From Actinomycetospora sp. TBRC 11914 (GTDB lineage: Bacteria > Actinomycetota > Actinomycetes > Mycobacteriales > Pseudonocardiaceae), in assembly GCF_012933465.1 (NCBI RefSeq), contig NZ_JABBND010000013.1, positions 62,001-126,000 on the forward strand: a stretch of DNA of 64,000 nucleotides, in the 5' to 3' direction. The position numbers and the translations under genes are program-made. Shown one piece after another: positions 21,906-22,580 of this stretch (the stretch's first letter is position 1; every line of letters starts with the position of its first letter). Below the pieces are notes generated by a model. The model had not been told where the DNA came from and did not search any database. It was given only the letters and a program-made list of their open reading frames with translations.

Positions 21906-22505
21906 TCAGGCCTCCGGCATGCCCGGGATCCGCACCGCGCAGGCGTTCGTCGCCTCGGCGGTGACGCCGTCGAGGTCCGTCCGCACGGCGGCGTGGAACC
22001 GGCTGATCATCTGGTCCAGCCCCACGGTGAAGGAGATCTCCATGATCTGCTGCGTGGAGAAGTGCTCCGCCAGGTTCTTGTACATCTCATCGGTGATCGG
22101 CTGCATCCAGGTGGACGCGCGCGCGAACACGATGATCGCCTCCTCGGCGGGCGCGAACATGCCCTCCGGGAGCGGGTCGTCGAGGAGGTGCGACATCTCC
22201 TCGTCGGTCAACCCCGATGCTCGACCGAGCACCACGTGGGTCGGCGTTCAATAGAAGCAGTTGTTCGCGACCGCACTGGTCAGGTACGGCAGCTCCCGCA
22301 TGCGCGGCGTGGGCAGCGAGTTCTGGAAGTACACGGTCTCCAGGAACGCGAAGAGCTGCTCCATCGCCTTCGGGTGGTTCGCGAGGGCGCGGTGGACGTT
22401 GAGGACGCCCACCTCGGGCTGGGCGTCGGCGACCGACTCCAGCAGCGCCTTGGCGTGGGGGTCGACCTCGGGGTCGTCGGGGTTCCAGAGCGGGACGCGC
22501 GCCAC
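21906..22505 (-). CDS. CMD/AhpD-like protein with in-frame UGA in the CxxC site
   Basis: This frame of 200 codons starts at GTG 22505, which has GGAAGG about 6 nt upstream, and has a single TGA at 22250-22248. The surrounding protein is a normal carboxymuconolactone decarboxylase/AhpD-family sequence: ...SAVANNCFY-[TGA]-TPTHVVLGRASG... The family's redox motif is CxxC...H (NCFYCTPTH type), so TGA replaces exactly the second cysteine. Translated with selenocysteine it is a 199-residue CxxU protein, a plausible peroxidase or thiol-disulfide enzyme. A GGUC-loop hairpin follows (see 22215-22234). Otherwise it is a gene broken by a TGC/TGT to TGA change. Both halves keep normal coding character. 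Confidence 0.75.
22215..22234 (-). promoter_or_regulatory. SECIS-like stem-loop after the in-frame UGA
   Basis: On the minus strand UGGUGCUC (22234-22227) pairs with GAGCAUCG (22222-22215) over 8 bp, two of them G-U pairs, closing a GGUC tetraloop (22226-22223). The loop begins 21 nt after the UGA. Bacterial SECIS elements recognised by SelB sit inside the coding region about this far from the UGA and carry G and U in the apical loop (E. coli fdhF has GGUC). The match is by eye, not by a folding program. Confidence 0.55.
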
Positions 22506-22580
22506 GGGGCACCTTCCGTCGGGGATGGGCTGACCCCCGCGATGCTCCGGACGGCGTGTTACGACGAGGTTGTGCGCAAT

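Follow-up and report, generated by a model that had tools for sequence, protein, structure and literature searches.

The window considered here, a stretch of 64,000 nucleotides from Actinomycetospora sp. TBRC 11914 (host genome G000, 6.52 Mb), contains an AhpD-like frame with a TGA in its middle. Does translation end at this codon, or is it read as selenocysteine (Sec)? On the basis of sequence comparison, the gene almost certainly encodes a selenoprotein with an AhpD/CMD fold: SelB with Sec-tRNA(Sec), anticodon UCA, would insert Sec at UGA 22250-22248, and the product would most likely be a reductase of peroxide or another oxidant.

The interrupted frame and its predicted product

The gene and its signals are located as follows.

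21906..22505, minus strand: gene for a predicted AhpD/CMD-fold selenoprotein, 199 residues, Sec at residue 86
22505, minus strand: GTG start of the AhpD-like gene, with its final TGA at 21908-21906
22512..22517, minus strand: Shine-Dalgarno-like GGAAGG, 6 nt 5' of the GTG start, recognized from sequence
22248..22250, minus strand: predicted UGA Sec codon (CxxU), replacing the second cysteine of the active site; stop kept in 26 of 26 orthologous genes

A preliminary description of this DNA had put forward one frame of 200 codons, opened by a GTG with a ribosome site, interrupted only by the TGA at 22250-22248 and of normal coding character beyond it. The same frame is read on checking. From 22505 to 21906 on the minus strand it comprises 199 residues and the final stop, with the TGA of codon 86 as the sole internal stop (context NCFY*TPTH); GGAAGG (22517-22512) is found 6 nt upstream of the GTG, and the G+C content at third codon positions is 0.965 3' of the TGA versus 0.976 5' of it.

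When the TGA is read as a residue, the protein belongs to PF02627 (CMD), with 38.9 bits against a cut-off of 23. Taken separately, the N-terminal part scores 18.8 bits, under the cut-off, and the C-terminal part gives nothing at E 0.01. No NCBIfam model reaches its cut-off: the best is TIGR01926 (peroxidase-related enzyme; 40.9 bits, cut-off 81.8), followed by NF041238 (AhpD_rel_CFYUT; 38.8 bits, cut-off 175), and the protein is a member of neither. With NF041238, an alkylhydroperoxidase-related (seleno)protein, it shares the CFYUT motif in a match over residues 26-187, but that profile has 357 positions as opposed to the 199 residues of the window's protein.

E71, C83, Y85, position 86 and H90 are invariant across 25 aligned members. 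They make up the AhpD-type site Glu-x11-Cys-x-(His/Tyr)-Cys-x3-His, with Sec predicted to replace Cys at 86, and their spacing is that of the proton-relay sets described in the consulted part of PMC3141380 for PA0269 (Glu36, Cys48, Tyr50, Cys51, His55) and for M. tuberculosis AhpD (Glu118, Cys130, His132, Cys133, His137). The preliminary placing of the TGA at the second active-site cysteine is thereby borne out, by the AhpD/CMD match and by the set E71/C83/Y85/U86/H90. A structure predicted from the 25-row alignment, with Cys substituted for Sec, has a mean pLDDT of 89 and superimposes on the AhpD structures 2prr, 6k40 and 6e8l with TM scores of 0.71-0.78. The predicted fold is shared with PA0269 (2o4d, 2ijc) and with peroxidase-related AhpD (2prr, 6k40), at 18-24% identity in the fold alignments; PA0269 also has the Glu-Cys-Tyr-Cys-His spacing, but Cys where the window's protein would have Sec. 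The best solved relative by sequence is 2ouw_A (E 1.9e-10), a poorer match by fold, and the debrominase Bmp8 (6ohj_A) ranks third among the fold matches (E 6.7e-6).

The comparison shows the conservation of the codon and its match to the tRNA, the hairpin, the predicted fold and the catalytic residues; Sec insertion, SelB binding, substrate and reductant are inferred. In the proposed catalytic cycle, Sec would take the role of the second AhpD-motif thiol (E71 ... C83-F-Y-U86-TPT-H90), and its selenolate at U86 would attack peroxide or a similar oxidant. A Cys83-Sec86 selenylsulfide would then be formed and re-reduced by a cellular thiol system. Peroxidase activity is the most likely one, as judged solely from fold and residues, and the Bmp8 debrominase has the same fold. 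A true selenoprotein with another activity, for instance reductive dehalogenation by a selenol, or thiol transfer to a peroxiredoxin in the way AhpD serves AhpC, is therefore an alternative to be weighed, and we consider it unlikely though far from negligible. The high rank of Bmp8 is in its favour, but peroxidase-related AhpD structures match equally well or better.

The genomic neighbourhood bears on the same question. The window's copy is flanked by two genes.

22973-22581, minus strand: ankyrin-repeat gene (PF12796, 46.7 bits), before the AhpD-like gene
21847-20831: luciferase-like monooxygenase of the MsnO8 family, after the AhpD-like gene

Six Actinomycetospora genomes have the AhpD-like gene, and in all four loci compared a frame homologous to the MsnO8-family-type monooxygenase is found just downstream, which also favours a non-peroxidase role. 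Outside the genus, however, annotated neighbours vary by locus: an amidase gene 3' of the AhpD-like gene in G237 and G122, inositol-phosphatase-family and PAPS-reductase-family genes in G1010, metal-transport-family genes in G334 and G212, and a DNA polymerase III subunit gene next to a second copy in G212. Across the 17 loci compared, with 20 selected neighbour frames annotated, conserved neighbours provide no general substrate clue. As a separate observation, frames homologous to the ankyrin-repeat gene occur at the other three Actinomycetospora loci compared, although not always adjacent. The peroxide or oxidant reductase continues to be the preferred reading.

The stop codon among orthologues

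Orthologues were sought in genome sets that overlap and in which larger groups are sampled. The family of the host yielded 10 genes in 9 of 249 genomes (single-sequence query, E 1e-15, own genome counted). With profile A1 at E 1e-20, the gene is found in 2 of 394 genomes of the class and 5 of 396 of the phylum (query genome counted where it belongs), and in 9 of 112 genomes of the family of Geodermatophilus G998. One further orthologue was supplied by an Acidimicrobiia MAG (L015); L027 was dropped because it duplicates the gene of the window. Once duplicates are removed, the set comprises 26 genes from 24 actinobacterial genomes, the window's gene included. They are well delimited by score: orthologues reach at least 145 bits, the next relatives at most 70. 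In the 25-row alignment, the 24 other members are 38-90% identical to the window's protein; alignment A5 and the gene tree omit L033, an incomplete second copy from G709. The gene is optional, since 10 of the 16 Actinomycetospora genomes searched (E 1e-15) lack it and all ten have a tRNA-Sec.

Codon 86 is a stop in all 26 orthologous genes: 17 have TGA and nine have TAG, the latter all from the family of Geodermatophilus, and Cys occurs at this codon in none of the 26. With regard to TGA versus TGC or TGT in close homologues, sister species that have the gene have a stop and not Cys; an example from the same genus is the orthologue at 1,269,534 of Actinomycetospora endophytica NZ_JAJNDB010000001.1 (G219). 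Among 29 rows of more distant relatives (the retained loci L092-L117, together with L017 and a second frame of L032), the aligned position is Cys in 13 rows and Glu in 12, with Ser in one and a stop in three. The orthologues thus have their stop at a position that is usually Cys or Glu in the wider family.

Could the stop simply end translation, by programmed termination, with the downstream frame being separate or untranslated? A downstream GTG start at 22235 would suit two polypeptides, and read-through is predicted from comparison. However, the conserved catalytic set E71-C83-Y85-[86]-H90 straddles the stop and the position usually holds a residue in the distant relatives. In addition, TAG is used exactly where tRNA-Sec has CUA (see below), a match for which termination would have no need. 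Programmed termination is accordingly very improbable. Less probable still is a dead or misread AhpD-like gene, produced by a nonsense point mutation in the strain or by an error of sequencing. A single stop in an otherwise open frame is the expected outcome of either, but coding character persists past the TGA, residues 3' of the stop are conserved and nine genes have TAG in a genome whose tRNA-Sec carries CUA. As all 26 orthologous genes share the stop, mutation, frameshift and sequencing error are practically excluded.

Three frames beyond the orthologue set deserve mention in their own right. In G798, L032 contains a second CMD-superfamily frame (QAEY*GPHH) immediately before the orthologue, with an in-frame TGA at the same aligned position and without the first Cys, possibly giving tandem selenoproteins. 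Two more distantly related CMD-superfamily frames, L093 (ECNY*QSHG) and L108 (GCPW*LDFG), come from other actinobacterial genomes and also have TGA at this position, each followed 3' by an apparent short inverted repeat; they are perhaps further Sec branches.

The hairpin and the decoding machinery

Downstream of the UGA, the following elements can be recognized.

22209..22243, minus strand: bacterial SECIS-like hairpin, from the fold of the window sequence, with upper stem and loop aligned over 24 elements
22234-22227 with 22222-22215, minus strand: upper stem of the hairpin, 8 bp
22226-22223, minus strand: hairpin loop GGUC
22243-22238 with 22214-22209, minus strand: lower stem, from the window sequence alone

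The 44-nt hairpin stretch of the window has a folding energy of -19.5 kcal/mol (z = -2.15), and 2 of 200 shuffles are as stable. A single-sequence fold of this kind is modest to weak evidence for the predicted hairpin; it is the comparison among relatives that lifts it beyond chance. In 24 distinct elements (identical ones merged: the window's is L018, and L025 is L024) the GGUC loop starts 21 nt 3' of the codon, at offset 24 from its U. The 8-bp stem has 188 standard pairs out of 192 over these elements, compared to a mean of 122 and a maximum of 139 under a synonymous-codon null (2000 draws, usage of eight window genes). Furthermore, the Gly codon of the loop is GGT in all 24 elements, versus 3.8% of 318 Gly codons in the eight window genes. 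The lowest-energy fold keeps at least 6 of the 8 upper-stem pairs in 18 of the 24; in L022, L023, L026, L033, L063 and L069 the upper stem is missing or partial.

Covariation differs between loop lengths. Alignment A2, of all 24 hairpins, mixed 4-nt and 5-nt loops and is superseded by A3 and A4; each row was given the better-pairing of the two lengths, and the null was given the same choice. A3 holds 11 of the 13 four-nt-loop rows, L020 and L021 being omitted for a 40-nt stretch identical to L018 and L019. In the 5-nt-loop set (11 rows), both-side changes are seen at four of the eight pairs, which none of 500 shuffles matches. The 4-nt-loop set, to which the window's element belongs, has such changes at one pair, equalled by 493 of 500 shuffles, while only one of 500 attains its percentage paired and its covariation score. 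Of the SECIS-like hairpin described earlier, then, the 8-bp stem, the GGUC loop and the 21-nt distance are retained and are conserved among relatives, with covariation that is strong in the 5-nt set and weak in the 4-nt set. Rfam assigns no family at E 1 to the hairpin on its strand; a match of the region to a miRNA family (E 0.94) is on the other strand only and was rejected. GGTC also occurs in the stretch 3' of the UGA of the formate dehydrogenase gene in the host genome, and the GGUC loop resembles the loop of E. coli fdhF that is bound by SelB. SelB with Sec-tRNA(Sec) would bind this hairpin just downstream of the UGA.

All four of selA, selB, selC and selD, the genes to be sought according to the preliminary description, are present in the host genome. 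SelA is encoded at C1:12974-13987, directly followed by SelB; tRNA-Sec (selC) lies at C1:5930-6021 (70.3 bits, anticodon UCA) and SelD at C12:91566-92477 (385 bits). SelA alone proves little, as it is carried by 232 of the 396 genomes searched in the phylum, and its presence was dropped as a stand-alone proof of Sec. For a related species, Actinomycetospora chiangmaiensis, the part of PMC7176365 consulted describes selenium-dependent formate use and detection of SelA, SelB and SelD by proteomics. Some side observations concern the same machinery. Just after selC on contig C1 lies a formate dehydrogenase alpha frame (L010:6084-9317) whose sole internal stop is a TGA (L010:6651-6653, residue 190), a second likely selenoprotein. 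SelD of G699, G709, G798 and G1001 has one in-frame TGA each, suggesting a Sec-containing SelD, and in G837, an assembly of about 350 contigs, no SelD scores above cut-off.

In the window's genome, selA, selC and selD are on contigs other than that of the AhpD-like gene, and no tRNA occurs within 1.5 kb of this copy. In 6 of the 24 genomes, selC adjoins the AhpD-like gene. In G998, selC is followed by 77 nt, the AhpD-like gene, some 1.3 kb to which no family is assigned, selA and selB, and selD flanks selC on the opposite side; the order selD-selC-gene recurs in G999 and G1000. The gene lies between selD and selC, then selA, in G1092, and begins 41 nt past the Rfam end of selC in G122 and G237. 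Between the AhpD-like gene and selA of G998, a 201-codon frame (L079:7051-7656, plus strand) is observed, without NCBIfam match at 1e-8.

Codon and tRNA agree throughout. A tRNA-Sec above the Rfam cut-off is present in every gene-bearing genome (18 of 18 among 29 genomes, then 6 of 6), and codon 86 agrees with its anticodon in all 24: TGA with UCA in 15 and TAG with CUA in nine. That Geodermatophilus and its family use TAG together with a tRNA-Sec of anticodon CUA, which the preliminary description did not foresee, is the strongest evidence for predicted Sec. Read-through with Trp, Pyl or a near-cognate residue instead of Sec has hardly any probability left. In the nine genomes with TAG, ARAGORN does label the CUA tRNA as tRNA-Pyl, a label that probably follows from the CTA anticodon alone, but Rfam scores the same nine as tRNA-Sec (64.2-69.5 bits, cut-off 47). 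Moreover, they sit among selD and selA in G998 and G1092, the codon is at the redox Cys position with the GGUC hairpin downstream, and UAG-encoded Sec in Geodermatophilaceae is already published, according to the text consulted of PMC5330540. With the stop in 26 of 26 genes, the tRNA match in 24 of 24 genomes, the sel genes and the hairpin, the initial proposal that UGA specifies Sec stands.

Codon history and relation to known selenoproteins

In a gene tree computed without the column of codon 86, TAG genes appear in three places and a single TAG clade is rejected (p-AU 1.7e-5). The tree needs three codon changes, two of which are forced by well-supported branches alone. The Sec codon has therefore switched at least twice, always in agreement with the tRNA of the host. 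Either genes moved between hosts and were then re-spelled, or old copies were re-spelled upon the change of tRNA; both routes point to selection for decoding codon 86 as Sec. The absence of Cys from all members found suggests that the enzyme may perform chemistry beyond the reach of a thiol. We lean slightly towards the idea of a Sec-only subfamily, sometimes located inside a sel cluster, re-spelled between UGA and UAG more than once to match the tRNA-Sec of its host, which may carry out non-thiol chemistry, possibly a Bmp8-like reductive dehalogenation, rather than peroxide reduction. If this is true, the subfamily would document, in nature, how selenoprotein genes were transferred, or ancient paralogues kept, across a change of the genetic code.

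UAG-encoded Sec in Geodermatophilaceae was reportedly described by Mukai et al. 2016. The UAG selenoproteins of this family presented in the consulted text of PMC5330540 (FDH, UGSC and AhpC) combine a CUA tRNA-Sec with TAG genes, as here, but the list given there includes no AhpD/CMD protein. AhpD-like or CMD-domain CxxU selenoproteins appear in the sections consulted of the reports on Sargasso Sea and GOS data (PMC1088965, PMC2398784), and AhpD-like selenoproteins are also listed in a 2026 review (PMC13188914), again as consulted in part. As described there, the marine proteins share with the window's protein Sec in CxxU, an AhpD/CMD domain and a UGA with a downstream bacterial SECIS. They are set apart, by description, by their Cys homologues (902 in GOS for AhpD-like 1, which corresponds to COG2128, and 207 for AhpD-like 2), whereas the window's subfamily has no Cys in 26 genes. 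Its members found are, in addition, all actinobacterial and some use UAG, a difference that is likewise one of descriptions only.

In the parts consulted of the openly licensed literature, neither an actinobacterial AhpD-like subfamily nor a UAG-encoded AhpD protein was found. The preliminary claim of novelty has to be narrowed: the Sec-only AhpD-like subfamily, for which NCBIfam has no model, is new, but AhpD-like CxxU selenoproteins (PMC1088965, PMC2398784, PMC13188914) and UAG-encoded Sec are each already in print.

Since no NCBIfam model scores above its cut-off, gene finders that take UGA and UAG as stops probably truncate the AhpD-like gene or overlook it. A well-supported Sec-only subfamily is added to the selenoproteome of actinobacteria, and the match between codon and tRNA-Sec over 24 genomes argues for decoding from comparison alone. 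One enzyme in naturally occurring UGA and UAG forms is at hand for the study of stop-codon reassignment and of selenoprotein genes between codes.
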